Source of the DNA: Chloroflexota bacterium
GTDB lineage: Bacteria > Chloroflexota > Chloroflexia > Chloroflexales > Roseiflexaceae
Direction of reading: 5' to 3'
DNA length: 39,428 bases
NCBI GenBank assembly: GCA_030550675.1
Contig: JAUQOW010000010.1
Coordinates: forward strand, 1-39,428
The translations under genes were made by a program, and so were the position numbers. Positions 7,501-39,001 of this stretch are shown here, one piece after another (the stretch's first letter is position 1; each line of letters starts with the position of its first letter). The notes under the pieces were generated by a model that was not told the DNA's origin, made no database searches, and was given only the letters and a program-made list of their open reading frames with translations.

Positions 7501-7807
7501 GTTATGTTAATCGCCGGCAACCTTGCCGGTGCGTTCACGGCGCGCCGCACGCGCCTGCGCGCCGCAAGCAGGACGAAGACCGTCACACCCGTCAGAATGG
7601 CGGTTTCATGCCATCCCGCCCGCTTCAACGCGGTCCTGCGCCTGCCCGCATCGTGCGCGCCAGCAGGCGGTCGGGAGCGCGCTGAGGAGTGTCGCCAAAG
7701 AAGACCCGGCGCGCCCTCTGGTCGCTTCCCCATCCACGTGATCCCGGCGTCAGCCCCTCGCCAGCGCCGGTCACATTTCATACGCGGAGCAGCATTCGCT
7801 CGCCAAT
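7501..7807. other. Intergenic stretch with no recognisable gene
   Basis: About 300 bases between the dispersed repeat and the interrupted hydrolase. A minus-strand frame (7329-7817) runs through it and the repeat, but the product is Arg/Ala/Pro-rich with no domain and no plausible ribosome site. I see no RNA gene or terminator. It may be decayed sequence downstream of the pseudogene. Confidence 0.4.
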
Positions 7808-9049
7808 TCAAACACACAAACGCACATCGTCCGGCGTATGCCCGAACACGCGATCCAGCCAGTCGAAGATCACCAAGTGCGCCAGGCGCAGGTTGTTCAC
7901 CTGACAGTGGCCATCGGCGCCCTCGGCAGCGGTGAATTCGCAGAGCGTGACATCGATGCCGCGCTGACGGAAATCGCGGTATAGTGCGAGCGTCTGGCGC
8001 TTCAGTTCGTCGCCCTCGCCTTCGCTCATCAGAAACAATGACGGTACAGTAATCCTCGCGTAGTCCACCCGCTTTGCCATAGCAACAACGCCATCCACGA
8101 CGCTCTTGAAGTCGGCGGCGCCAAACTGCCAGGCGTACTTGTCAAGATTGATCTCGGCGCTCTTGTTGAACGCGCCCGCCAAACGCATCAGGGCGTTAAG
8201 CGCCCAGCCCGGCGCTTTCATTGCGCTGCCGAACTCGCGTCGAAATACTTCAACCAGATCGAAGATGGGCGTGCTGGCGATCCAGGCATTGATGCGCGGG
8301 TCGGACGACACCGCCAGCGCCGTCGTGTAGCCGCCGCCGCTGATGCCGTAGATGGCGATCCGCTCAGGACGGACGGCGGCGTGCGCTTCGAGCTAGTCAA
8401 GTACGGCGCTGATCGGGCGTTCCATGTCCACCCGGAAATGGAAGCCGCGGTTCGGCGTCATCCCCTGCCCCGGCAGATCGACCATCACGACATTGTAGCC
8501 CCGTTTCCATCCAGGATAGCCCGCGAAGTAGAACAGGTCTTCACGGAACGTATCTCCGCCTCCCGCCATGACCACCGCCGGACGCGGCTGCTGATCGTGT
8601 TCCAGATAGTAGCCTGGCAACGTCGTGTGCTCGAATGGAACCTCAATCGGACGCACAGGCGCGCCGATCAGGTCGATGCCCTGCTGAAACGCGCCCTCCA
8701 TCGCCTGGACGCGCGCGCTGAAGTCGCTTGCGCCGGGATGAGTGTACTGTAACGCCGACCGGTACGCATACGCGGCGCCAAGGTAAAGTTGCCCCGCAGC
8801 CCGCCGATGTCTATGCTTGAGAAACTCCTGCGCCCGTTCCGCCTGATAGTCACCCTGCCGCCAGAAGCCGTCGCGCCAACCATCTGGGTCGCCGTCCCGG
8901 ATGTTGTGGACGGCATAGCAGACCTGCGACGGCGACATGCCGACAATCTGGCTCACTCCCAGCGCCCAGTTGAACATAAAGTCCATAGCGCCGTTCTTGA
9001 ACCGCGTGGCGTACTTCTGCCGCTTCAGGATGACATCGTGTTCTTTCAT
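7808..9049 (-). pseudogene. Alpha/beta hydrolase interrupted by an in-frame TAG
   Basis: One continuous frame of 414 codons encodes an alpha/beta hydrolase of about 413 residues but is split by a single TAG at 8393-8395. The first part (218 residues) holds the N-terminal helical region and the first core strands (RPAVVMAGGGDTFREDLF, YNVVMVDLPGQGM). After the TAG the frame continues without any shift into LEAHAAVRPERIAIYGISGG, which supplies the nucleophile-elbow Ser of GxSxG. A candidate acid follows (FLMSEGEGDEL), then the catalytic His (EGADGHCQV). The stop replaces the residue in VLD-x-LEAH, usually Tyr in relatives, so TAC or TAT to TAG is the simplest change. The truncated product cannot be active. 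AAGGAG lies six bases before the ATG. Sequencing error, recent inactivation and amber readthrough cannot be told apart here. Confidence 0.8.
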
Positions 9050-9126: not shown

Positions 9127-9747
9127 TTATCCGCAGTCCGTTGCGATCTGGCGCTCCCTGCGCTGCACGCCGCGCACGAAGATTTCCACCAGGCTGTCGG
9201 CGGCGCGTTGCGGGTCCAGCGGGCTTGGCGCCGCGATGTGCCACTTGTGCAGTGCGCTTGCCAGACCGAAAAATGCGCGCACTACCCCTTCCGGGTCGAG
9301 CGCGGGATCGATTTCCCCCTGCTCGATGCCGCGTTGCACGAGCGCAACAATGTCGTCGCTGATGCGCCGGATGTATCCAAACGCCTCATCGTTCGCGCAG
9401 AGCAGGCGAAAGATTTCGGGCCAGGGACCGACGCCCAGGGTGTGCATCTGCACCTGGCGCTGGAGGATCTGACGCATAATGAAACACAACTGCTCCATCG
9501 GCGAGCGATCCGCCTGCGACTCGATCAGCGCGACCATCTGCTTCATTTCGCGCGTCGCCGCTTCGACGACCAGTTCTTCCTTGGTGGCGAAATGGGTATA
9601 GAGCGTCGGTTTGGAGATGCCGACACGGGCTGCCAGTTCGTCCATTGACATGGCGCTGTAGCCCTTTTCGGCGACCAGTTCCTGCGCAGCGCTCATAATT
9701 TCCTCGCGGAGCGCCTGCTTCTGCCGCTCACGAAGTGTCAGTGTCAT
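9127..9747 (-). CDS. TetR-family transcriptional regulator
   Basis: A 206-residue TetR protein. The N-terminal DNA-binding domain (about residues 10-60) shows IMSAAQELVAEKGYSAMSMD and ELAARVGISKPTLYTHFATK, the conserved helix-turn-helix with the Y-x-(H/Y)-F end. The C-terminal ligand and dimer domain is helical and contains AFFGLASALHKWHI. The ATG at 9747 has AGAGGGGG a few bases upstream and is preferred over a GTG 27 bases earlier. It is divergent from the RND pump genes, and a perfect 14-bp palindrome at 10100-10113 just before the pump promoter is the best candidate operator. The interrupted hydrolase follows on the same strand after 77 bp. The likely role is repressing the pump until a ligand binds, which is inferred from layout. 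Confidence 0.88.
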   Translation of the reverse strand: MTLTLRERQKQALREEIMSAAQELVAEKGYSAMSMDELAARVGISKPTLYTHFATKEELVVEAATREMKQMVALIESQADRSPMEQLCFIMRQILQRQVQMHTLGVGPWPEIFRLLCANDEAFGYIRRISDDIVALVQRGIEQGEIDPALDPEGVVRAFFGLASALHKWHIAAPSPLDPQRAADSLVEIFVRGVQRRERQIATDCG

Positions 9748-9807
9748 AGGTTTCCCCCTCTGGGCGACGGTCACATCCGCACGCGCACCTGATCAGGACG
9801 ATCAACT

Positions 9808-10152: not shown

Positions 10153-10306
10153 AGTCTTGTTGTAAAGCGCGGTCTGGAACCTGTCGTTCCACAGCGCGAT
10201 GCGCGGCGCGGCGCAGACGGTTCTGCAAGGCTTCTCGCCGCGTTTTTGTTTGAGTTTCCAATCCCAGACCCCCGCCCGCGGCGGGCACACACGGAGGCAG
10301 GCGTGC

Positions 10307-13300
10307 ATGGCAATCCAACGACGTGAAGAGAAACTCAACGGTATGCCCATTTCGGACACCTCCATCCGTCAGCCGGTGTTTGTGACAATGCTTATGCTGC
10401 TGACGGTCGTTTTCGGCATCCTCTCGTTCCGTTCGCTGCCGGTCAATCTGCTCCCCGACTTCGAGGTGCCGATCATTGCGATCAGCGTCCCATACCCCGG
10501 CGCTGGTCCCGAAAGCGTCGCCGACCAGGTTGCCAAACCGATCGAAGATGCAGTCAACACGATCGAGGGCATTGAAAATATCACCACCAATGCCAGCGAA
10601 GGTCTGGCGCTCATCATCCTTGAGTTTGCTCAGGGTACGGATGTTAACCGCGCTGATCAGGACGTGCGCGAAAAGGTGAATGCCATCCGCCCGACGTTGC
10701 CGCGCGATGTCCGCGAGCCGATCTTCCAGAAGTTCGACCCGAACGCCGCGCCGATCATTTCCTTCGCTATCGCTGGAACGCAGAATCAGTCGCCGCTCGA
10801 AGTGCGCCGGATTGTTGATAACGAAATCTCGCCGCTCATCCAGCGCGCGCAGGGCGTCGGCTCCGTCCAGGTCTCCGGCGGTCTGCAACGCCAGATCAAC
10901 GTGTTGATGGACCTGGAGAAACTGCGCGCCTACGGCATTCTGCCGGTGCAGATCACGCGGGCGTTGCAGCAGGCGAATACGAACCTTGGTCTCGGTTCAA
11001 TCACGGCTGGCTCGCAGGAAATCAACCTGCGGGCGCCGTCGCTCCTGCAAACCCCCGAAGATATTGCAAAAATCCAGATCACGGGAACGCCATACCGCAT
11101 TGGCGATGTGGCAACCATCGAAGACGGCGTCGCCGAAAAGCGCAGTTTCACCCGACTCAACGGCGTTGAAGCCATCATTATCGATGTCCGCAAGCAAAGC
11201 GGCGCCAATACCGTCGCCGTCGCCGATAACGCGAAAGCCGCCATTGAACGCGCGCTCGCCAATCGCAGCGATTTGACCTACATCATTCCGCGTGACGCAT
11301 CGGAAGCCGTTCGCCAGTCGACGATCAGTTCGCTGGAAGAATTGATCTATGCGTCAGTTGCGGCGCTGCTGGTGGTTATGCTCTTCTTCAGCGGCGCGCG
11401 CAACATGCTCGTCACTGCCGCCGTTCCCGCCGCCATCGCGCTGGTCGGTCTCGTCATCCTTCCCGCGATTGGCGTTCCGGTCGATAAAGTCCTGGTCCTG
11501 GCGACTGCGATCGGCTTGCTGGTGATCCTCACGTTTATCCGCGACCGGAACACGCTGGTGACGATGGCAGGCTTGCCGATCATTTTGATGGGCACCTTTG
11601 CGCTAATGCCGGTGTTCGGGCTGTCGATCAACCTGATCACGCTGCTGGCGCTGGCGCTCTGCGTTGGTCTGGTGATCGACGACGCCATCGTGGTGCGCGA
11701 GAATATCTTCCGCCATACGCAACGCGGCGAGTCGCCGCGCGTCGCCGCCAGCAAAGGAACGGCGGAAGTGGCGCTTTCGGTGGTGGCGATGACGCTGACC
11801 GTCGTCGCGGTCTTCGTGCCAGTAACGTTCACGACCGGTACGACCGGCATCATCTTCAAGTCGTTCGGCATCACGATTGCGGTCGCCATCCTGCTGTCGC
11901 TGGTGGAAGCGTTCATGTTTGCGCCGATGCTCTCCGCCAATCTCTTCCGTCGCCAGAAGGTGCAGCCGCACCCGCACGACGAGGCGCATTCGCACACTGG
12001 CGATATCGGGCGCGCGGCGCGGCGTCTGCGCAACATTGATCCCAACCAGGCGGACGCCAGCCTGCTCCATGAGGCGGAAGAGGATCCCGGTCCGCTCGGT
12101 CGGTTCTACGAGCGTGTCCTCTCCTGGAGCCTGCGCAGCCTGCGGAACCGCCTGATCGTGATCGCCACCGCAATTGTGGTGCTGATACTGAGCGTTGTCG
12201 TCGCCAGCGGGTTGAAGTTCAGTTTCTTCCCGCAGCAGGACGCTGGCGAGTTCCTGGTCGGGTTCGAGTTGCCACCGGGCACGGCGCTGGCGGAGACCGA
12301 CCGCCTTGCGCGTCAGGCGGAGCAGGTGATGCTGGCGGACCCGGATGTTGAGTCGGTGATCAGCACCGTCGGTTTTTCCGGGGCGCCGGAGCGCGCCGAA
12401 TTCTTCGTGCGCCTGAGGGACGACGTTCCGACTCGTTCGGTTGAGGAACGGCTGCGCCCGCAACTGGCGTTCCTGCCGAACCTGACGTTTGGTTTGCCGT
12501 CGATTGGCGTGCCGACGACCACCGGCGTCACCGGTCGCCAGTTGCAGTTGAGCCTTCAGACGACCGAGCCGGTTCAGAACCTGGCGCCGATCATCGAGCA
12601 GATCAAAGCGGAAATGGCGGCTATTCCCGGCGTGGTGGATATTGACTCCACCTATCGCCCTGGCAAGCCGGAACTGCGCTTTATCGCCGACCCGGAGCGC
12701 ATTGGCGACCTGGGGATCACCAATGATGAAATCGCAGCGTCGGTGCGCGCCCTGGTCAACGGCGATCGTGCGACGGCGCTGCGGCAGCAGGGACAGGACA
12801 TCGACATCGTCGTTCGCCTGCGCCCCGAAGACCGCGCCACGCCGGAAGCGTTGCAGAACATCGCCATTCCAACTCGCAGCGGCACGGTTCCGCTGAGCGC
12901 GCTGGGGCGAATTGAATTTGCAACCACGCCGCAGACGATCCGGCGCTACGACAAACTCAATCAGGTGATCATCGGCGCCAACCTGCAGGGGCGCAACCTC
13001 GGCGAGGTGCAGAACGAACTGCAGCAGCGCCTGGAGGCGAAAGGGATCATTCCGCCGACCGTCATCGCTACGTTCACCGGTCTGGTGCAGCAGCAGACCG
13101 AAGGGTTCGAGTCGCTGCTCCTGGCGATGCTGCTGTCGGTGATCTTCGTCTATATGGTGCTGGCGTCGCAGTTCGGATCTTTCACGCAGCCGCTGGTGAT
13201 TATGGTGGCGATGCCGTTCAGCTTCATCGGCGCGTTCCTGGCGCTGCGCCTGATCAATGTCGATCTCGACATCACCGGCATGATCGGGTTGATTATGCTG

Positions 13301-13831
13301 CTCGGTCTGGTGGTGAAGAACTCGATCCTGCTGGTGGACTTCACCAACCGCCTGCGACGCGCCGGGCTTGACAAGCATGCCGCGCTCGAACTTGCCGGCG
13401 CGATCCGCCTCCGCCCGATCTTGATGACCACCCTCTCGCTGGTGGCTGGCGCGCTGCCGGTGGCGATGGGCATTCACCTGATCGGCACTGGCGAGGGCGG
13501 CGAATTCCGCAAGGGACTGGCGACCGTGCTGATCGGCGGGTTGATGACTTCGATGCTTCTGACGCTGCTTGTCGTGCCGACGGCATACAGCCTGATGGAG
13601 TCGTTTACCGAGCGCGTATCGAACTGGTTCCGCCGTCGCTTCGACCCGGAGGGATGGGCGGAAGAACAGGCGGCGAAAGAAGCGGAACTGGCGCCGGTCA
13701 ATGGCAGCGTCCCGGCGGTCGCCCTCACCCTGGTGAATGGCGGGACAGTGAGCGTCCCGCTCACGCAGGTGCATGGAGAGGAGCCTAACGGTCACGCGCC
13801 GGTCGATGCGCCGAAAAAGACGACGGAGTGA
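10307..13831 (+). CDS. HAE1-type RND efflux pump with extra TM hairpin
   Basis: A proton-driven RND inner-membrane pump of 1174 residues, about 125 longer than AcrB. Family hallmarks are seen: the N-terminal SDTSIRQPVFVTMLMLLTVV, GLVIDDAIVVREN with the paired Asp of TM4, and GLVVKNSILLVDF with the TM10 Lys. These are the proton-relay residues. Between TM2 and TM4 there are two successive hairpin-like units: RNMLVTAAVPAAIALVGLV at 11399 and RNTLVTMAGLPIILMGTFA at 11546. They are exactly 49 codons apart where one unit is normal, predicting 14 rather than 12 helices. A His-rich stretch (HPHDEAHSH) lies in the cytoplasmic loop before the second half. I choose the ATG at 10307, with GGAGG nine bases upstream; the family-typical ATG at 10343 is an alternative. 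The adaptor gene follows 67 bp downstream. Confidence 0.9.
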   Translation: MAIQRREEKLNGMPISDTSIRQPVFVTMLMLLTVVFGILSFRSLPVNLLPDFEVPIIAISVPYPGAGPESVADQVAKPIEDAVNTIEGIENITTNASEGLALIILEFAQGTDVNRADQDVREKVNAIRPTLPRDVREPIFQKFDPNAAPIISFAIAGTQNQSPLEVRRIVDNEISPLIQRAQGVGSVQVSGGLQRQINVLMDLEKLRAYGILPVQITRALQQANTNLGLGSITAGSQEINLRAPSLLQTPEDIAKIQITGTPYRIGDVATIEDGVAEKRSFTRLNGVEAIIIDVRKQSGANTVAVADNAKAAIERALANRSDLTYIIPRDASEAVRQSTISSLEELIYASVAALLVVMLFFSGARNMLVTAAVPAAIALVGLVILPAIGVPVDKVLVLATAIGLLVILTFIRDRNTLVTMAGLPIILMGTFALMPVFGLSINLITLLALALCVGLVIDDAIVVRENIFRHTQRGESPRVAASKGTAEVALSVVAMTLTVVAVFVPVTFTTGTTGIIFKSFGITIAVAILLSLVEAFMFAPMLSANLFRRQKVQPHPHDEAHSHTGDIGRAARRLRNIDPNQADASLLHEAEEDPGPLGRFYERVLSWSLRSLRNRLIVIATAIVVLILSVVVASGLKFSFFPQQDAGEFLVGFELPPGTALAETDRLARQAEQVMLADPDVESVISTVGFSGAPERAEFFVRLRDDVPTRSVEERLRPQLAFLPNLTFGLPSIGVPTTTGVTGRQLQLSLQTTEPVQNLAPIIEQIKAEMAAIPGVVDIDSTYRPGKPELRFIADPERIGDLGITNDEIAASVRALVNGDRATALRQQGQDIDIVVRLRPEDRATPEALQNIAIPTRSGTVPLSALGRIEFATTPQTIRRYDKLNQVIIGANLQGRNLGEVQNELQQRLEAKGIIPPTVIATFTGLVQQQTEGFESLLLAMLLSVIFVYMVLASQFGSFTQPLVIMVAMPFSFIGAFLALRLINVDLDITGMIGLIMLLGLVVKNSILLVDFTNRLRRAGLDKHAALELAGAIRLRPILMTTLSLVAGALPVAMGIHLIGTGEGGEFRKGLATVLIGGLMTSMLLTLLVVPTAYSLMESFTERVSNWFRRRFDPEGWAEEQAAKEAELAPVNGSVPAVALTLVNGGTVSVPLTQVHGEEPNGHAPVDAPKKTTE

Positions 13832-13898
13832 ATGAGGCGTGAGGCGTATCGCCGTATGGGATAATTCACAGATAATCCAAACCGAGGAGAAACGAGTC

Positions 13899-15332
13899 GT
13901 GAAACGTGGTCGCTTGATCACAGGAGTATTGACCGGATTGACCGCTGCGGCGCTGGCGGCGTGCGGCGCGCAGCCCGCCGCTCCCGCGCCGACTGCCACG
14001 GCGCCCGCGGCATCGCAACCCACCGTCGTTGTGCCGACGCCGGTGCCGTTGCCGACCAGCCAGCCGATCCAGCTCGGCATCACCGGCATCGGCGAAGTCA
14101 AGAGCGCGCAGGATGCCAACCTGTCGTTCCAGGTGCAGGGCACAGTGGCGGAGGTTTTCGTCAAAGAAGGCGATTTTGTCAAGAAGGGCGACCTGCTCGC
14201 AATCCTTGACACGCGCGCCTTCGACCAGCAACTCGAACAGGCGCAGGCGGCGCTTGCGAATGCGCTGGCGCAGGAAGCGGCGTTGACCGAGGCGCCGCGA
14301 CAGGTGGATCTCAACGCCGCGCGCGCGGCGGTAGCGCAGGCGCAGGCGGCGCTCGAGGCGCTCCAGCGCGGACCCAAGGAACAGGACATTCGCATGGCAG
14401 AAGCGGCGCTGGCAGCCGCCGAAGCCAATCTGCAAGCCACCCGCGACCGCCTGTCGTTCGCCAAGACCCAGGCGGAAATTCAGATGGAACAGGCGGCTGC
14501 CGCGCTGACGCAGGCGCAGGCGCGCTACGCGCAGGCGAAGTACAACTGGGAGTACGCGCGCGACACTGGCAATGACCCGATTGTTCCCGAAGTGACGGCG
14601 CCGAACGGACAGCGCGTGCCGAACAAATTGAGCGATGGGCAGCGCGAGAATTACTACGCTCAGTTTGTCCAGGCGGAAGCCGGGTTGCGACAGGCGGAAA
14701 AGGCGCTCGAACTGGCGATCAAAGGCGCCGAAAGCGCGCGTCAGGCGGAAGTCACTGGCATCCAGGCGGCGGAAGCGCAGGTCGAACAGGCGCGCCTGAC
14801 CCTCGAAAAGTTGCGTCTGCCGCCAGACCCGGATCGACTCGCGGCTGCCAGGGCGGCTCTGGCGCAGGCGCGTGCGCAGGAAGCGCGGGTCATCCCCGAT
14901 CCGCGCGAGTCGCAGAAGGCGGCGGCGCGCGCTGCCGTTGAGCAAGCCCGGGCAGCGTTGACGCTGGCGCAGATCAACCGCGAGCGCGCCGAGCTGCGCG
15001 CGCCGTTCGATGGCATCGTCTCGATTGTCTCAATCGATCCGGGCGATCCAAGCGTGACCCAGGGGCTGCCAGCGATCCAGATCGTCGATATGAGCAAACT
15101 GTATGTCGATGTTCAGATCAGCGATGTGGACATCAGCCGGGTGCGCGAGGGTCAACCGGCGAAAATCTCGATCAGCAGCATTCCCGATCGGGAGTACACC
15201 GGCAAGGTTGAGTTCATCGCGCCAACGGCGACTGTGCAGGGTCTCTCCCGCAGCTACCGGGTGCGCATCGCGCTCGACGACATCACCGGGCTGCGGGCAG
15301 GAATGAGCGCGCGGGTCGATATTCTGGAGTAG
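13899..15332 (+). CDS. RND efflux periplasmic-adaptor (HlyD/MFP) lipoprotein
   Basis: A 477-residue membrane-fusion protein. It begins with a lipoprotein signal ending in the lipobox LAAC at residues 19-22, so Cys22 should be lipidated and anchor it to the membrane. A Pro/Thr-rich linker follows, then a first biotinyl-lipoyl half (LSFQVQGTVAEVFVKEGDFV), a long Ala/Gln-rich coiled-coil hairpin (about 95-370), the second lipoyl half (RAELRAPFDGIVS), and a beta-barrel and C-terminal domain (SKLYVDVQISDVDI onward). The GTG at 13899 is chosen because GAGGAG lies nine bases upstream and it starts the signal peptide. It partners the RND pump just upstream. No TolC-like gene is present, which would fit an envelope without a conventional outer membrane. 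Confidence 0.9.
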   Translation: MKRGRLITGVLTGLTAAALAACGAQPAAPAPTATAPAASQPTVVVPTPVPLPTSQPIQLGITGIGEVKSAQDANLSFQVQGTVAEVFVKEGDFVKKGDLLAILDTRAFDQQLEQAQAALANALAQEAALTEAPRQVDLNAARAAVAQAQAALEALQRGPKEQDIRMAEAALAAAEANLQATRDRLSFAKTQAEIQMEQAAAALTQAQARYAQAKYNWEYARDTGNDPIVPEVTAPNGQRVPNKLSDGQRENYYAQFVQAEAGLRQAEKALELAIKGAESARQAEVTGIQAAEAQVEQARLTLEKLRLPPDPDRLAAARAALAQARAQEARVIPDPRESQKAAARAAVEQARAALTLAQINRERAELRAPFDGIVSIVSIDPGDPSVTQGLPAIQIVDMSKLYVDVQISDVDISRVREGQPAKISISSIPDREYTGKVEFIAPTATVQGLSRSYRVRIALDDITGLRAGMSARVDILE

Positions 15333-26859: not shown

Positions 26860-29022
26860 ATGAGCGATGAGGCGCAGACCACGACGGCTGGCGATGCAGC
26901 AGTACAACCGCTGTTCGATATGTTCCCTCCCGCCACCTACGAGGAATGGCGCGCCGCAGCGGAAAAGACGCTCAAGGGCGCGCCGTTCGAGAAGCGGCTG
27001 ATCACCAAAACCTATGAGCAGATCAGTCTTCAGCCGATCTACAACGCCGAAGACATCGCATCTCTGCCGCATGTCAACTCGCTTCCTGGCTTTGCGCCGT
27101 TTGTGCGCAGCGCGCGCACGCTGGGGTATGTCATCGGGCGCTGGGACGTTGCTCAGGAATTGCCCTATCCCGCGCCGCACGAGGTCAATCAGGCGGCGCG
27201 CGACGATCTGCCGCGCGGGTTGACGGCGATCAACCTGCCGCTCGACCGGGCGACGCTTCAAGGGCTGGACCCGGACGCCGCGCCAGCCGACCTGGTCGGC
27301 GCCGGGGGCGTGTCGCTTGCCAGTATGGAGGATGCAGCGGCGCTGTTCGATGGCGTGGCGCTCGACCGCACGCCGTTGCTCATCCTGGCTGGCGCCGATG
27401 CGCTGCCGATCGCGGCGCTGATCCTGACCGCTGCGGAACGGTATGGCATCGCGCACGATCAACTGCAAGGGTGCGTCGGCGCCGATCCGCTCGGCGCGCT
27501 GGCAACTGCCGGGACGCTGCCGCTGTCGCTGGATCGCTGCTACGACCTGATGGCGCGCTGGACGGCGTGGGCGCAGACCCACGCGCCACGCCTGCGGACG
27601 ATTGCGGTGGCAACCCACGGGTACCACAACGGCGGCGCGAACGCCGTGCAGGACCTGGCGTGCGCGCTGGCGACCGGGGTGGCGTATCTGCGCGCAATGC
27701 AGGAGCGCGGGCTTGATGTCGATGTGGTTGCTCCGCGCATGCTGTTCGCCTTCTCGATCGGGTCGCAGTTCTTTATGGAAATTGCGCGATTGCGCGCGGC
27801 GCGCATGCTGTGGGCGCGCGTCGTCGAGGCGTTCGGCGGCGGCGAGGAGGCGCAGAAGATGCGCGTCCACGGACGCACGTCCGCCTGGACGAAGGCGAAA
27901 TTCGATGTGTACAACAACATGCTGCGCGCCACCGGCGAAGCGATGGCTGGCGTGATGGGCGGCGTCGATAGCCTGCACGTCAGCCATTTCGATGAGGCGT
28001 GGGGCTTGCCCGACGAGTTTTCGCGCCGGATCGCGCGCAACGTCCAGATTATTCTCCAGGAGGAGTGCAATTTCATCCGCCTGATAGACCCGCCCGGCGG
28101 TTCCTGGGCGATTGAGACGCTCACCGATCAGGTGGCGCAGAAAGCCTGGGCGCTGTTCCAGGAGATTGAGCGCCGCGGCGGTATGGCTGCCGCCCTAAGC
28201 GCTGGTTTCCCGCAGGCTGAGATTGCCGCTATTCGCAACGAGCGCTTCTCCGCAATCGCGCACCGCCGCGAGGTGATCATCGGCGTGAACATGTATCCGA
28301 ACCTCAAGGAGAAACCGCTCACGGTGCGACCGGTAGATCACGCTGCGGTGCAGGCGGAGCGTTCCGCCGATGTGCGGCGCGTGCGCCAGACGCGCGACTC
28401 GCAGGCGTGTCAGGATGCGCTTGAGGCGCTGGCGGCGGCGACGCCGGATCGTATGGTGGAACTGGCGCTCGCAGCGGCGCGCGCCGGCGCAACCCTTGGC
28501 GAGCTTGCGACAGCGCTGGCAGCGGGCGACGCCGCAGCGCCGACGGTCGAGCCGATCCCGGCGCATCGCGCAGCGGAACAGTTCGAGGCGCTGCGCCTGA
28601 CGGCGGATGCGTATGCCGCGCGCACCGGCGCGCGTCCAAAGGTCTTCCTCGCCAACATGGGACCGATTCCGCAGCACAAGGCGCGCGCCGATTTCTCGAC
28701 CGGCTTCTTCGAGGCGGGAGGCTTCGAGGTCATCGGCAACGACGGGTTCGCCACGGTCGAAGAAGCGGCGCAGGCGGCGCTGGCGTCGGGAGCGGATATC
28801 GTCACGATCTGTTCAACCGATGAGACCTACCCGGAGATTGTGCCGCGGCTGACGAATCTGATAAAATCGAGTCGTCCAGATATTACCGTGGTGCTGGCAG
28901 GGTATCCTGCCGATCAGGTTGAAGCCCATCGGGCGGCCGGGGTCGATGAGTTCATTCACATTCGCGCGAATTGTTACGAGACCCTGGTGCGGTTGCAGCA
29001 GTTGAAAGGAGTTGTGGCGTGA
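26860..29022 (+). CDS. mutA: Methylmalonyl-CoA mutase small (beta) subunit
   Basis: A 720-residue subunit of the adenosylcobalamin-dependent mutase that interconverts methylmalonyl-CoA and succinyl-CoA. The N-terminal TIM-barrel domain is recognisable ([59 protein letters not shown]). In the C-terminal Rossmann domain the place of the cobalamin-binding DxHxxG is occupied by [13 protein letters not shown] (about residues 600-612), so this chain should not bind B12. That is normal for the small subunit of heterodimeric mutases, which is structural. GAGGAG precedes the ATG. Its stop overlaps the mutB start by four bases (GTGA). In filamentous phototrophs the reaction serves the 3-hydroxypropionate bi-cycle and propionyl-CoA metabolism. 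Confidence 0.93.
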
Positions 29023-31241
29023 AAACCCCGGATTTTACGACGCTTCCCTATCGTGATGGCGCCCCTGCCCCTACGCTGGCGCAGTGGCGCGAGCGCGCTG
29101 AACGCGAGGCGGGCAAACCGCTCGATGCGCTGGTCTGGCGTACCATGGAGCAGATTGATGTGCGCCCTCTGTACACCGCCGAGGATATCGCCGGGTTGGA
29201 GCATCTGCGCTTTACAGCGGGCATCCCGCCCTACCTGCGCGGTCCTTACCCGACCATGTATGTGACCCAGCCGTGGACGATCCGCCAGTACGCCGGGTTC
29301 TCGACTGCTGAGGCAAGCAATGCGTTTTACCGGCGCAACCTGGCAGCCGGGCAGAAGGGATTGTCGGTCGCCTTCGACCTGGCGACGCATCGCGGCTATG
29401 ACTCCGATCATCCGCGGGTGGTCGGCGATGTCGGCAAGGCGGGGGTGGCAATCGACTCGGTGCTCGACATGAAAATCCTGTTCGACGGCATCCCGCTCGA
29501 TCAGATGTCGGTGTCGATGACGATGAACGGCGCGGTCATTCCGATTATGGCGTTCTACATCGTCGCCGCCGAGGAGCAGGGGGTGCGCCAGGAGCAACTG
29601 ACCGGCACCATTCAGAACGACATTCTCAAGGAATACATGGTGCGCAATACGTACATCTACCCGCCTGAGCCGTCGATGCGCATCATCGCTGATATTTTCG
29701 CCTACACGGCGAAGCACATGCCGAAGTTCAACAGCATCAGCATTTCCGGCTACCATATGCAGGAGGCGGGCGCCACCGCCGACCTGGAGCTGGGATACAC
29801 GCTGGCGGACGGTCTGGAGTATGTGCGCGCCGGGTTGAAGGCAGGGCTGGCAATTGATGAGTTCGCGCCGCGCATTTCGTTCTTCTGGGCGATTGGCATG
29901 AACTATTTCATGGAGATCGCCAAGATGCGCGCCGCGCGCCTGCTGTGGGCGAAGATCATCAAGCAATTCAACCCCAAAGACCCGCGCTCGATGGCGCTGC
30001 GCACGCACTGTCAGACGTCGGGCTGGAGCCTGACTGAGCAGGACCCGTTCAACAACGTGGCGCGCACCTGTATCGAGGCGATGGCTGCCGCGCTGGGGCA
30101 CACGCAGTCGCTCCACACCAATTCGCTCGACGAAGCGATTGCGCTGCCGACCGACTTCTCGGCGCGGATTGCGCGCAACACGCAGTTGTATCTCCAGGAA
30201 GAGACCGGCATCTGCAAGATTGTCGATCCGTGGGGCGGGGCGTACTACCTGGAGTGGCTGACTGATGCGCTGGCGCGACGCGCCTGGGCGCACATCCAGG
30301 AAGTTGAGGAGTTGGGCGGCATGGCGAAAGCCATCGAAGCCGGTCTGCCGAAACTGCGCATCGAAGAGGCGGCGGCGCGGCGTCAGGCGCATATCGACTC
30401 CGGGCGCGAGACGATCGTCGGCGTCAACAAGTATCGCCTGCCCTACGAGGCGCCGATTGAAATCCTGGAAGTGGACAACACGGCGGTGCGCCAGGCGCAG
30501 ATCGAGCGGTTGAAGAAACTGCGCGCCGAACGCGATGAGGCGCGCACGCAGGCGGCGCTCGATGCGCTCACCCGCGTGGCTGCCACCGGCGAAGGCAACC
30601 TGCTCGAAGCGGCGGTCGAAGCGGCGCGGGCGCGCGCGACGCTGGGAGAGATTTCGATGGCGATGGAAAAGGTCTTTGGGCGCTACAAGGCGACCATCCG
30701 CACAGTGTCGGGCGTCTACAGCAGTGAGTTCAGCGATGTCGAGCAGATCCACCATGTGCGCGCATTGGCGGACGCATTTGCGGCGCGCGAAGGGCGCCGT
30801 CCGCGCATTCTAATCGCCAAGATCGGGCAGGACGGGCACGACCGCGGCGCCAAGGTGGTGGCGACGGCGTTCGCCGACCTGGGGTTCGACGTGGATATCG
30901 GGTCGCTGTTCCAGACGCCGGAAGAAGTGGCGCGTCAGGCGGTCGAGAACGATGTGCACATCGTCGGCATCAGTTCGCTGGCAGCCGGGCACAAGACGCT
31001 CCTGCCGCAACTGGTCGAAGAACTGCGCAAACTGGGGCGCGACGATATTATGGTGGTGATCGGCGGCGTCATTCCGGCGCAGGATTATGAGTTCCTGCGT
31101 CAGCACGGCGCAGCCATGATCTTCGGTCCCGGCACGATCATCCCGGTGGCGGCGGAGAAGCTGCTCCTCGAATTGCAGCGGAGGCTGCACGGCGATGGCG
31201 TCGAGACCGGTTCGACAGTTCAGACGCGAGACGCAGCATGA
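29019..31241 (+). CDS. mutB: Methylmalonyl-CoA mutase large (alpha) subunit
   Basis: A 740-residue catalytic subunit. The substrate barrel shows [59 protein letters not shown] and [16 protein letters not shown]. The C-terminal B12 domain has [17 protein letters not shown], with D605-x-H607-x-x-G610; the His replaces the cobalt lower axial ligand. The GxGG-type loop appears as [15 protein letters not shown]. The start is the GTG at 29019 with AAGGAG eight bases upstream, coupled to the mutA stop; the longer frame from 28971 would run inside mutA. meaB overlaps its end by four bases. Confidence 0.96.
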
Positions 31242-32377
31242 GCAACGGTCAACACTCCGCTTCCTCTGAAGAGATGCCGTTTGGGCTTTCAGTGGTGGAA
31301 GGGGTGACCGGCGGGCACGATGGGTTGCCGGGTCAGCGCGTGAGCGCCCCGGCAACGCCGCCGTCCGCTCGCCGGCGCCTGCTGACGGTCGATGAGTATG
31401 TGGCGGGCGTGCGCAGCGGCGACCGGTCGATCCTGGCGCGCGCCATTACGCTGATCGAGAGCAATGCGCCAGCGCACATGGCGCTGGCGCAGGAGGTGCT
31501 GCGCGCGCTGCTGCCGTACACCGGCGGATCGCTGCGTGTCGGCATCACCGGCGTGCCTGGCGTCGGCAAGAGCACCTTCATCGAGGCGCTTGGCACGATG
31601 CTCTGCGAACGCGGGCATCGCGTGGCGGTGCTGGCGGTCGATCCGTCGAGCAGCATTTCGCGCGGCAGCATTCTTGGCGACAAAACGCGCATGGAGCGCC
31701 TGTCGCGTCACCCAAACGCCTACATCCGTCCATCGCCGACGGGCGGCAGCCTTGGCGGCGTGGCGCGCAAAAGTCGGGAAACGCTGCTCCTCTGCGAAGC
31801 CGCCGGGTTCGACATCGTGCTGGTCGAAACGGTCGGCGTCGGTCAGAGCGAAGTGGCGGTGCGGGGGATGGTTGATTTCTTCCTGCTCCTCATGCTGGCA
31901 GGCGCGGGCGACGAATTGCAGGGGATTAAGAAGGGAATCATCGAACTGGCGGACGCCTTGCTGATCACCAAAGCCGACGGCGACAATCGGGCGCGCGCGC
32001 TGGCGGCGCAGGCGGAGTACACCCACGCGCTGCGCTACCTGACGCCAGCCACGGAGGGGTGGCGTCCGCGCGCCTATATCTGCTCGGCGCAGACCGGCGA
32101 GGGAATCGCGGAAATCTGGCGCGAGATCGAACGCTTCCGCGATGAAACGACGGCGTCGGGCGTGTTCGCCGCGCGGCGCCGCAACCAGGCGCGCGACTGG
32201 GTCTATACCCTGATCGAAGACCATCTGCGCTCCCGCTTTTTCGGGCATCCCGTCGTGCAGGAGCAATTGCCCGCCATCGAACAGGCAGTCGTCGAAGGGA
32301 CGCTGCCGGTGACAACGGCGGTGCAGACGCTGATCCAGGCGTTTGAGAGCGCGCTGCAGAGGGAAGGCAAAGGCTGA
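31238..32377 (+). CDS. meaB: MeaB/ArgK-type G-protein chaperone of methylmalonyl-CoA mutase
   Basis: A 379-residue P-loop GTPase of the MeaB/MMAA (G3E) family. The Walker A motif GVPGVGKS is at residues 105-112, preceded by the family helix ([27 protein letters not shown]). It is followed by [31 protein letters not shown] (switch III-like region) and [10 protein letters not shown] (base specificity). MeaB gates adenosylcobalamin loading into the mutase and protects it from oxidative inactivation. It overlaps mutB by four bases, so the three proteins are made from one coupled operon. The N-terminal 45 residues are poorly conserved, so a later start is possible. Confidence 0.95.
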
Positions 32378-33215: not shown

Positions 33216-33968
33216 GTGAGCGAAAGCGTCGAAATGTACCTGGTGATGACGGCGCTCCTGCGCAGTGCGCCAGATCAGCCGGTGCCGCTGTCGTTGCTGG
33301 CGAACAAACTTGGGGTTTCGCAGGTTTCCGCCAACGAAATGTGCCATCGGTTGGAGGAGCGGGGGCTGCTCGCGTACCAACCGTACAAAGGCGTCACCCT
33401 CACACCGGATGGCGAGGAGTGGGCGCAGCGCATCCTCTCGCGCCGCCGCCTCTGGGTGATCTTCCTGGTCGAGAACCTGGGCATCGAACCGGAAGAAGCT
33501 GATACGCTGGCATGCCAGCTCGAACATATTACCTCAGATCGTCTGGTTGCAGCGCTCAAAGCTTTCCTCGAACGCGATCCCGACACTCGCGCCGCTGCGG
33601 GTCAGGCGCCGCAACCGCTCACTGCCTGCACCGCCGGAATGCGCGGCGTCATTGCTGCTGTCGATGTTGAACCGGCGGCGGCGACGTTTCTGGCACGGCA
33701 GGGGGTCGTCCCTGGCGCTGAGGCTGAGGTGCTGGCGGTCGGCGCCGATGGCGCCGTGTTAATTCAGGTGGACAATCATCAGGTCGCGCTGGCGGCAGCG
33801 CTTGCCCGGTGCATCTCCCTCGATGCCAGCCCGGTTGCGCATACGGCGCGGCACGCTGCATGGCGACGCTGTAGCGCCTTCTGGTCGTGCGTCCGCGGCG
33901 AGCCGCACGTGTGCCCGCTGGACGAACCGTTGCCCCAGGGTTCTGCTGCAACGCTGGCGACGCCATGA
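33216..33968 (+). CDS. DtxR/MntR-family metal-dependent repressor with FeoA domain
   Basis: A 250-residue regulator. Residues 5-65 form the winged helix (VPLSLLANKLGVSQVSANEM, then LEERGLLAYQPYKGVTLTPD). Residues 70-125 form the metal-binding dimerisation domain (RRRLWVIFLVENLGIEPEEA, ACQLEHITSDRLVAAL), where the Cys, Glu and His side chains seen in DtxR relatives are present. Residues 137-200 are an SH3-like FeoA domain (GMRGVIAAVDVEPAAATFL). A Cys-containing tail of about 45 residues follows and is unusual. Iron- or manganese-loaded family members bind palindromic boxes and repress uptake genes. The feo genes next door, with a candidate box at their start site, are the obvious target. GGAGGAG precedes the GTG at 33216. 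Confidence 0.85.
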   Translation: MSESVEMYLVMTALLRSAPDQPVPLSLLANKLGVSQVSANEMCHRLEERGLLAYQPYKGVTLTPDGEEWAQRILSRRRLWVIFLVENLGIEPEEADTLACQLEHITSDRLVAALKAFLERDPDTRAAAGQAPQPLTACTAGMRGVIAAVDVEPAAATFLARQGVVPGAEAEVLAVGADGAVLIQVDNHQVALAAALARCISLDASPVAHTARHAAWRRCSAFWSCVRGEPHVCPLDEPLPQGSAATLATP

Positions 33969-34538: not shown

Positions 34539-34779
34539 TCAATCGCTTCCGCTGATGTTCGTCGGTCAGGGCGTGCGCGCGCGGCTCGTCGGCATCAGCG
34601 GCAGTCAGCGCACCGCGCATCGCCTGGCGGAACTCGGCTTTGTTCCCGGCGTCGAGGTGTCGGTCGTCGCCGACAGCGGCAGCGCACTGATGGTCGCCGT
34701 CGGCGATACACGGCTGGCGCTCGGCTACCCGCTGGCGCAGGCGCTGCTTGTGACCGTCCTGGAGAAGGGAGCTTCCTGA
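34525..34779 (+). CDS. feoA: FeoA-family ferrous iron transport protein, second copy
   Basis: An 84-residue protein with the same fold but clearly different sequence from the first copy: [55 protein letters not shown]. Two FeoA proteins in tandem suggest a heteromeric partner for FeoB. Its stop overlaps the start of the FeoB G-domain gene by one base. Confidence 0.88.
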
Positions 34780-35309
34780 TGGCAGAGGTGATTGTTGCGC
34801 TCGCTGGCAATCCGAACGTCGGCAAAAGCACGATCTTCAACGCGCTGACTGGTCTGCGGCAGCATGTTGGCAACTGGCCCGGCAAAACCGTCGAGCGGAA
34901 AGAGGGTCAACTGATCCTGAACGGTCACGCGGTTACGATTGTCGATCTGCCCGGCGCATACAGTCTGACAGCGCGTTCGCTCGAAGAGCAGATCGCGCGT
35001 GACTTCATCGTGCGCGACCGTCCTGATCTGGTGATCAACGTCGTGGATGCCGCCAACCTGGAGCGTAACCTGTACCTGACGGCGCAATTGCTCGAAACCG
35101 GCGCGCGCCTGCTGGTAGCGTTGAATATGACCGATGTCGCGGCGGCGCGCGGGATGACCCTCAACCCTGATGCCCTTGCCAGAGGATTGGGCGTGCCGGT
35201 GATACCGCTGGTCGCCAGCAGGAACGAAGGGCTGGCAGCGCTAAAAGCGGCGCTGGCGACGCTGGTTGCGAGGGTGAGGGATCGTCAGACAGTCCGAGAG
35301 GTGGCATGA
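34779..35309 (+). CDS. feoB: FeoB N-terminal G-domain as a separate protein
   Basis: A 176-residue GTPase equal to only the N-terminal G domain of FeoB. G1 is GNPNVGKST (residues 10-18), the G2 region is NWPGKTVE, G3 is DLPG (56-59), and G4 is NMTD (116-119), the FeoB variant of NKxD. The stop is genuine TGA inside ATGATGA, and the rest of FeoB starts at once in another frame, overlapping by four bases. In most bacteria these parts are one polypeptide of about 700-800 residues. Here the nucleotide switch would act as a soluble subunit that must dock on the membrane part. Confidence 0.92.
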
Positions 35310-37036
35310 TGACAACGCTCGACATGTCCTTCCCTCAGGCGCCGTTCCATTATCCGCCCCCGATCGAGACAGAACTGAACCGTCTGACGGAACTCTTTGC
35401 GCGGACGCCAGCGCTGGCAGACGCCTACCCGCCGCGCTGGCTGGCAATCCAGGCGCTCGAAGGCGACGAGGCGCTCATTCAAGACATCCGCACGCTCGGC
35501 GGTCCCACTGTCGCAGCGGCGCTGGAGGAAAGCCTGGAACGATTGCGCGCCGCCTACGGCGATGACCTGGATGTCGTGCTTGTCGATCAGCGGTATCGCT
35601 TCGTCCACGCCATTGCCATGCAGGCGGTGCGCCGTCCATCCACGCCGCCGATGACCCTTTCAGACCGCATCGACCGTGTGGTGACGAATCGCTGGTTGGG
35701 CATCCCGATCTTCCTGGCGGTGATGTGGGTGGTGTTCAAACTGACTACTGATGTCGCCTCGCCGTTTGTGGACTGGCTCGACAGCGTGGTGAGCGGTCCG
35801 GTCAGTCGGTGGGCGTTGGCGCTGCTGGCACTGTTCGGCGCGAACGGCGGATGGATCGAGTCGCTGATGGTCGATGGGGTCGTTGCCGGCGTTGGCGGGG
35901 TGCTGGCGTTCGTGCCGGTTCTGCTGATGCTCTACTTCGCGCTGGCGCTGCTGGAGGACTCCGGCTATATGGCGCGCGCGGCATTCGTGATGGACCGACT
36001 GATGCGTGCGCTTGGTCTGCACGGGAAGAGTTTTCTGCCGATGATCGTCGGCTTTGGGTGCTCGGTGCCGGCAATCTACGCCACGCGGACGCTCGATAAC
36101 CGCCGTGACCGGATCTTGACCGGTCTTCTGGTTCCGTTTATGAGTTGCAGCGCGCGTTTGCCGGTGTATGTGCTGATTGCAATGGTCTTTTTTCCGGCGC
36201 ACGCCGGGCAGGTGATCTTCGGGTTGTATCTCACCGGCATCGTGGTTGCGGTCGGAATGGGCGCCTTATTGCGACACACGCTGTTCCGCCATCAACCGCA
36301 GGCGCCGTTCGTTCTGGAGTTGCCGCCGTACCGCATGCCGACGCTGCGTGGCGTCTGGCGGCAAATGTGGGAACGCACATCGTCGTTCATCCGCAAGGCA
36401 GGAACGATTATTCTGGCGACCAGCATCGTGGTCTGGCTGTTGCTCGCCATTCCGGTTGGCGAGGGAGAGTTCGCCGACGCGCCGGTTGACCAGAGCGCCT
36501 TTGCTGCGGTTGCGAATGCAGCCACGCCGGTGTTTGCGCCGCTTGGCTTTGGGCAATGGGAGGCGAGCGGCGCACTGGTCACCGGGCTGATTGCCAAAGA
36601 AGTGGTCGTCGGCACGCTGGCGCAGGTGTACGACGGCGCGGAGGAGGAGGGCGCGCCCGGTGACGAACTGGCGACGTTCGTCGATGATCTGAGCGGCATC
36701 GCTGGCGGATTCGTCACGGCGGTCGGTGATGCAGTGCACGCGCTGCCTGGCATCGTTGGCATTAACCTGATCGAGGCGGAGGAAGAGCCGGTGGCGGAAG
36801 GACTGGCAGCCGCCATCCGCACCGGATTCATGGCGAGCAGCGGCGGTCACGGGTCGCTGGCGGCGCTGGCGTTCCTCGTATTCGTGCTGCTGTACACGCC
36901 GTGCGTGGCTGCGCTGGCAGCCAATCGCCACGAGTTTGGCACAGCCTGGATGCTGGTCAGCCTGCTGGGGCAGTTTGCCATCGCGTGGCTGGCGGCGTTC
37001 ATCGTGTTCCAGGGCGGGATGATGATGGGGAGATGA
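35306..37036 (+). CDS. feoB: FeoB membrane permease part (GDI plus core)
   Basis: A 576-residue protein containing what normally follows the G domain. Residues about 20-115 are helical ([25 protein letters not shown]-like region) and correspond to the GDI-like helical domain. The membrane core follows, with about ten helices, the first Gate motif ([20 protein letters not shown], with its conserved Cys in GCSVPA) and [15 protein letters not shown]. The second Gate region includes [17 protein letters not shown]. It ends after [19 protein letters not shown] and a final helix. The start ATG overlaps the G-domain stop by four bases, implying equal, coupled synthesis. Both parts retain all expected motifs, so this looks like a stable split and not decay. 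Confidence 0.93.
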
Positions 37037-38332: not shown

Positions 38333-39001
38333 ATGATGCTTGAAGAGTCTCCAGATCAGCAAACGTCTGAAATCTCAACCGACACCCCGGACAGCGTGGC
38401 GCAAACCAATGCTTCGTTGCGCCCTGGTTCAACGACGGAAGCCGAGGAGCGGCGAAAGGCGGCGCGCGCCAATCAGGTGAAGAAGGGTCTGGTGATCGTC
38501 AACACCGGCAACGGCAAGGGGAAGACCACTGCCGCACTGGGCATCCTGCTGCGCGCCTGGGGGCGCGATATGCGCGTCGGCGGCATTCAGTTCCTGAAGC
38601 ACGAAAATGCCAACTACGGCGAACTGCGCGCCCTCCGGCGCATGGGAATTGAACTGACGCCGATGGGCGATGGGTTTACCTGGACGAGCCGCGACCTCGA
38701 TGAGACGCAGGCAAAGGCGGTCCACGGCTGGGAGACGGCAAAAGCGCGGATTGCCAGCGGTGAGTACGATGTGTTCCTGCTGGATGAATTCACGTATGCG
38801 CTGACCTATGGCTGGATCGATACGGCGGAGGTGATTGAGTGGCTGCGCCAGCATAAGCCGCCGATGCTCCACCTGATTATCACCGGGCGCAATGCGCCCC
38901 AGGCGCTGATCGACTTCGCTGACCTGGTGACCGAAATGCGCGAGGTGAAGCATCCGTTCCGCGATCAGGGCATTCGGGCGCAAAAGGGCATTGAATACTA
39001 A
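38333..39001 (+). CDS. cobO: Cob(I)yrinic acid a,c-diamide adenosyltransferase
   Basis: A 222-residue CobO/BtuR protein. The P-loop GNGKGKTT is at residues 59-66, preceded by [27 protein letters not shown] and [20 protein letters not shown] follow, with [20 protein letters not shown] later; all are family signatures. The enzyme transfers the 5'-deoxyadenosyl group of ATP to Co(I) corrinoids, making the adenosyl form needed by methylmalonyl-CoA mutase. The first 45 residues are a low-complexity Thr/Ser/Glu tail; family members often have such a flexible N-terminus that closes the active site. The first of two adjacent ATG codons is used, with AAAGG upstream. It is downstream of the B12 riboswitch. 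Confidence 0.95.

Follow-up and report, generated by a model that had tools for sequence, protein, structure and literature searches.

A probable tandem duplication of TM2-TM3 in the AcrB-type RND pump of Roseiflexus and its sister genera

The locus considered here raises the question of whether an AcrB-type pump of the RND superfamily can carry two transmembrane (TM) helices beyond the usual 12 and, if so, where they came from and what they may do. The pump gene lies within a 39,428-nucleotide stretch of DNA from Roseiflexus, a hot-spring bacterium, the whole of which is referred to as the window. The initial annotation had read its product as a 14-helix protein with two TM2-TM3 units exactly 147 bp (49 codons) apart and with the proton-relay residues of TM4 and TM10 intact, a form not known to have been described. 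The two extra helices, it suggested, might be packed at the trimer interface or at a lipid-facing drug entrance.

The pump and its genomic setting

The pump reading frame is open over 10199-13831 on the forward strand, and a start at 10307 (MAIQRREEKLNG, also given as MAIQRREEKLNGMPISD) is likely and is preferred because relatives share the N-terminus MA......KLNG followed by an ISD..IRQPVF motif. The product belongs to the ACR_tran family, and so to the RND superfamily, with a PF00873 score of 774 bits against a cut-off of 28. By sequence, its relatives of solved structure include MdtB, AdeB, AcrD, MexB, CmeB and AcrB, with MdtB, AcrB and AdeB the best of them. Structure predictions, all of the monomer, give the AcrB fold and its two periplasmic loops, one following TM1 and the other TM7; the modelled window protein superimposes on AcrB (8p1i) over 977 residues at 4.1 Å (Z 54.0), and the model of a 71%-identical orthologue, L036, gives Z 54.9. 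The fold, the porter domains and the Asp-Asp/Lys/Arg relay are common to the window pump, AcrB, MdtB, AdeB and other HAE-1 permeases. The TM4 Asp pair is invariant in the alignments and the TM10 Lys nearly so, in agreement with what had been said of them at the outset, and the TM11 relay residues R1022 (nearly invariant) and T1029 are also kept. With this relay in place, proton-driven export by the usual rotation would be expected from knowledge of the family.

The features of the locus are collected in Table 1. A divergent TetR-family gene precedes the pump gene, and an adaptor gene begins 7 bp after its end. The adaptor has a lipobox-like LAAC after its N-terminal hydrophobic stretch and is on that ground probably a lipoprotein. 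This arrangement, or most of it, also surrounds the 12-TM orthologues. The pump's own genome has no other ACR_tran protein that scores above cut-off. A search for TolC/OEP (PF02321) in that genome, which is 99.8% complete, had no match, while the control search was positive in 7 of 14 genomes; this negative result is in keeping with the report that Chloroflexota are monoderm (PMC5826079). AcrB, MdtB and AdeB work as 12-TM members of tripartite systems with a TolC-type channel, whereas the window pump probably works as a two-part exporter with its adaptor. Under a strict definition of HAE-1 it therefore falls outside the group, having 14 helices by hydropathy, alignment and the L036 model in place of 12, with no gene found for an outer-membrane channel partner of the OEP/TolC type, although the predicted RND_mfp adaptor gene is present downstream and conserved. 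Its score against the NCBIfam model RND_permease_2 (NF033617), 697 bits, is likewise below the curated cut-off of 1250. Membership of RND and ACR_tran holds.

Table 1. Features of the pump locus, in window coordinates (residues counted from 10343)
Feature	Coordinates	Strand	Basis
TetR-family regulator, divergent from pump gene	9127..9774	-	PF00440; beside the pump in most relatives examined
AcrB-type RND permease, 14 predicted TM helices	10307..13831	+	PF00873, solved-structure relatives, AcrB fold
TM2a, native TM2 by conservation (residues 319-350)	11297..11392	+	60% mean identity to TM2 of 12-TM relatives
TM3a, first extra helix by conservation (352-375)	11396..11467	+	Hydropathy peak 2.59; helix in L036 model; 22% mean identity to native TM3
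Inserted 49 codons, cytoplasmic TM2/TM3 loop	11399..11545	+	Gap in 12-TM relatives, 147-bp self-similarity; boundaries slide by a few codons
TM2b, second extra helix by conservation (383-400)	11489..11542	+	Hydropathy peak 2.24; helix in L036 model; 21% mean identity to native TM2; periodicity p=0.02
TM3b, native TM3 by conservation (402-425)	11546..11617	+	69% mean identity to TM3 of 12-TM relatives
TM4 Asp-Asp pair D446 D447	11678..11683	+	Equivalent to AcrB D407/D408; invariant in alignments including AcrB-like sequences
TM10 Lys K992	13316..13318	+	Equivalent to AcrB K940; nearly invariant column
RND membrane-fusion/adaptor protein	13839..15332	+	Scores 134 bits to TIGR01730 RND_mfp, above cut-off; next to 14-TM and 12-TM pumps alike

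Several other features of the window were also recorded. An FrsA-like alpha/beta hydrolase gene (7805-9049, reverse strand) is broken by one in-frame stop following residue 218, where a Roseiflexus relative (L084:11018-12262) has Trp; the stop is either a nonsense mutation or a sequencing error. FeoB (34779-37036, forward strand) is split into adjacent ORFs, one for the GTPase (34779-35309) and one for the membrane part (35306-37036), with a DtxR-type regulator that has a FeoA domain nearby (33216-33968). Two tandem methylmalonyl-CoA mutase genes together with MeaB (26860-32377, forward strand) are followed downstream by a cobalamin adenosyltransferase of the BtuR/CobO type (38333-39001, forward strand).

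The inserted residues, their helices and their origin

An alignment with some 20 relatives from its order places exactly 49 additional residues of the window pump between TM2 and TM3, where the 12-TM relatives show a clean gap. Relatives found with the whole protein align to it over residues 3-354 and again over 402-1120, the intervening part being left unmatched, and the site of insertion is a short cytoplasmic loop, after ...VVMLFFSGA and before RNTLVTMAGLP. The closest standard of comparison is provided by the 12-TM AcrB-type pumps of other families and genera of Chloroflexales (for instance L010-L030), which are about 60-70% identical outside the insert, have the same N-terminus and proton relay and in most cases the same TetR/RND/adaptor neighbourhood, but lack the 49 residues and have 12 helices.

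Scanned for hydropathy with a 19-residue span, the window protein has 14 peaks that exceed 1.6. The two extra peaks are within the range of ordinary helices and recur, at 2.48 and 2.19, in the diverged orthologue L008. The AlphaFold2 model of L036, built from 22 sequences, has helices at 319-350, 352-375, 383-400 and 402-425, four separate ones ahead of TM4 (431-460), with pLDDT of 68-84 for the block and 68-74 for the insert; its helix boundaries are used here for the window protein, which has the same residue numbering. The model of the window protein itself, from 16 sequences, has a good core (mean pLDDT 76.8) and a helical insert with pLDDT of only 47-59, in which TM2a runs unbroken into TM3a (319-375). 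Modelling, proposed with the annotation as a check, gives the two extra helices in the orthologue, whereas the low-confidence model of the window protein does not part TM2a from TM3a. The segment is not one of the normal 12 helices, so that this refuting outcome named with the annotation did not come about; the count of 14 comes from hydropathy, alignment and the orthologue model.

Which of the four helices are the native ones is best judged by conservation. TM2a and TM3b resemble TM2 and TM3 of the 12-TM relatives far more than TM2b and TM3a do (Table 1), so that the outer helices are, on this evidence, the native pair and the extra hairpin is TM3a plus TM2b, set in the cytoplasmic loop. The annotation had envisaged two whole units following each other ahead of TM4; the duplication it saw is upheld, while the idea of an entire extra unit before TM4 gives way to a hairpin within the TM2/TM3 loop. 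It is unlikely that the helices have instead been exchanged, with TM2b and TM3b (unit B) occupying the native TM2 and TM3 places and TM2a and TM3a (unit A) being the addition. The cytoplasmic end of TM2b (FFRD/FIRD before RNTL) is indeed closer than that of TM2a to TM2 of some 12-TM relatives, but the identity to native TM2 is 60% for TM2a against 21% for TM2b, and the SSLEEL sequence, a conserved junction with the porter domain, is retained by TM2a.

As to origin, tandem duplication is the best reading, because the units are in register at a 49-residue offset and PF00873 matches TM2-TM3 twice (the profile matches the ORF as 1-378 and then 333-1020, so that positions 333-378 are used in both). 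The units begin at 11399 (RNMLVTAAVPAAIALVGLV) and 11546 (RNTLVTMAGLPIILMGTFA), which bears out the 147-bp spacing given at the start, and they resemble each other: there are up to 16 identities per 50-residue stretch, and the 49-residue units, aligned locally, reach a score of 55. Of 5000 shuffles 2 attain this score, and the next best segment of the pump protein scores 33. When the inserted residues alone are shuffled, the in-register match of TM3a with TM3b has p about 0.0005 and that of TM2b with TM2a, a weak one, p about 0.01 (range about 0.01-0.05); taken jointly, the two helix pairs give p no higher than 1e-4 in four orthologues and p of 0.001 in a fifth, the most diverged. An unrelated hydrophobic hairpin put into the TM2/TM3 loop would account for the insert alone scoring only 3-11 bits, barely recognised, against the TM2-TM3 profile of 12-TM relatives. 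It would leave the exact register over both helices, the rarity of the score among shuffles and the double PF00873 match to chance, and we consider it improbable, slightly more so than an exchange of helices. The duplication is judged to be old, because of that faint recognition and the modest DNA identity between the two copies. The TM8-TM9 hairpin was also considered as a source and set aside, as unit A scores 21 against it and 55 against unit B.

That the insert is re-entrant or lies on the surface, leaving a 12-TM pump, is very improbable, for though the window model has low pLDDT and a continuous 319-375 helix, the two stretches reach a hydropathy of 2.2-2.6, equal to real helices, and L036 is modelled with two separate helices of 18-24 residues plus a turn. 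A 14-TM pump that arose by tandem duplication of TM2-TM3 is therefore held to be highly probable.

Distribution and a single ancestry

Two genome sets, 158 from the class and 400 from the phylum, were searched with a 106-residue model of the insert region. In these sets the six Roseiflexus genomes all gave full-length matches, as did a single genome from each of three further genera in the family, and every remaining match was partial. The same 49-residue insertion in related genomes, whose presence had been named as a check, is therefore there, and among the sampled genomes it occurs only in Roseiflexus and three sister genera rather than commonly among homologues. The pump of one genome, G013 (same genus as G007), ends on its contig at residue 301, ahead of the insert region. 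Among plasmid-borne relatives, the tblastn matches that seemed to span the insert (Azospirillum, Chelativorans, Methylosinus and Sphingomonas) have the ordinary TM2-TM4 spacing. RND genes from viral contigs served as alignment material only.

The records of the carriers are Roseiflexus MAGs and three Chloroflexi MAGs, and the genome of one carrier, 5,801,598 bases long, is a single contig. An assembly artefact is discounted by the presence of the insert in independent assemblies as well as in this 5.8-Mb contig. In pump trees built without the insert columns, the carriers form one clade nested among 12-TM pumps, with SH-aLRT support of 99 in a quick tree and bootstrap/SH-aLRT support of 100/99 in a careful one; every bootstrap tree needs one change, and multiple origins are rejected on the ground of this single carrier clade. 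Pump copy number differs within the family: each sampled Roseiflexus genome has one match to the pump, against 12 matching pieces in G006, of genus g2, which has several 12-TM paralogues (L089:2828-10850 and other loci).

The strongly supported course of events is that, in the ancestor of Roseiflexus and the three sister genera, an in-frame tandem duplication of 147 bp copied TM2 and TM3 of a 12-TM AcrB-type pump. The outer helices TM2a and TM3b stayed near native, while out of the middle two, TM3a and TM2b, came the additional antiparallel hairpin that spans the membrane from the cytoplasmic loop. As topology and proton relay are unchanged, the pump is still expected to export by proton drive, together with its adaptor lipoprotein.

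Conservation and possible role of the hairpin

Within Roseiflexus the dN/dS of the insert is 0.05-0.15, similar to or somewhat above that of the porter domain and mostly above that of the neighbouring helices, and between genera it is 53-61% identical, compared with 79-100% in TM3b, TM4 and TM5-6. By these measures the extra hairpin is fast-evolving yet under purifying selection. TM3a and TM2b have the lowest share of invariant positions among the helices of the N-terminal half, and conservation follows helical periodicity in TM2b with p=0.02 and more weakly in TM3a (p=0.075), half of whose positions are invariant, small residues and two prolines among them. The pattern would fit a location at the domain's edge, with each helix packed on one face and exposed to lipid on its opposite face.

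A position on the lipid-facing side of the N-terminal half, beside the coupling helix TM2, is favoured, being the simplest place for a hairpin attached to TM2 and TM3 at their cytoplasmic ends. According to PMC8277102, the flanking helix TM2 of AcrB shifts with respect to the rigid TM1/TM3-6 block and couples it to PN2/PC1, and AcrB protomers touch via TM1 and TM8, not TM2/TM3; the TM1/TM2 groove is a lipid-side entrance for substrates (PMC10191380). One role of the hairpin could be to brace TM2 where it meets the rigid TM3-TM6 block, another to fence the TM1/TM2 entrance in part, both being put forward tentatively. A possible functional parallel is AcrZ of E. coli, a small helix bound in a TM groove of AcrB (PMC13095208, PMC10191380) that tunes the pump from the edge of the TM domain, and to which the hairpin could be a covalent counterpart; AcrZ is, however, a separate protein of 49 residues, and no homology to the Roseiflexus hairpin is claimed. 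We see it as possible, though doubtful, that the hairpin is a working part lying between the mobile TM2 and the rigid TM3-TM6 block, an AcrZ-like brace or a gate at the TM1/TM2 entrance, that alters the coupling or the substrate choice of the only AcrB-type pump of the lineage.

At least as likely as such a brace or fence is a retained, functionally minor passenger. The duplication might have been fixed by drift, with the hairpin needing only to stay hydrophobic and helical and transport unchanged, and this neutral course we rate somewhat short of an even prospect. It sits well with an insert whose conservation is mostly on one face and which, between sister genera, evolves faster than every adjacent helix; it sits less well with the invariant half of TM3a, and with a hairpin that was never lost in the sampled Roseiflexus and three sister genera and that belongs to the genome's only ACR_tran pump.

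The review PMC8277102 puts the helix number of RND proteins at '12, sometimes 13 or 14', and those with 13 or 14 resemble the window pump in exceeding 12; the statement gives no location for their extra helices. The literature searched, on 14-TM RND pumps, on TM duplications and on Roseiflexus RND pumps, consisted of MFS papers or of nothing to the point and yielded no description of a TM2-TM3 duplication in an RND pump. Within that literature, the impression that this form was new holds for the duplication and, going by the same review, does not extend to a count of 14 helices as such.

The RND transmembrane domain is usually taken as a fixed design of 2 x 6 helices. The window pump represents a natural partial duplication within it, of single origin and selectively kept. 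On one side of it is the helix by which substrate binding is coupled to proton flow, on the other the rigid block against which that helix moves. Pumps that are closely related, have 12 helices and share the operon setting offer natural controls for how far the TM2-TM3 connection tolerates change without loss of coupling.
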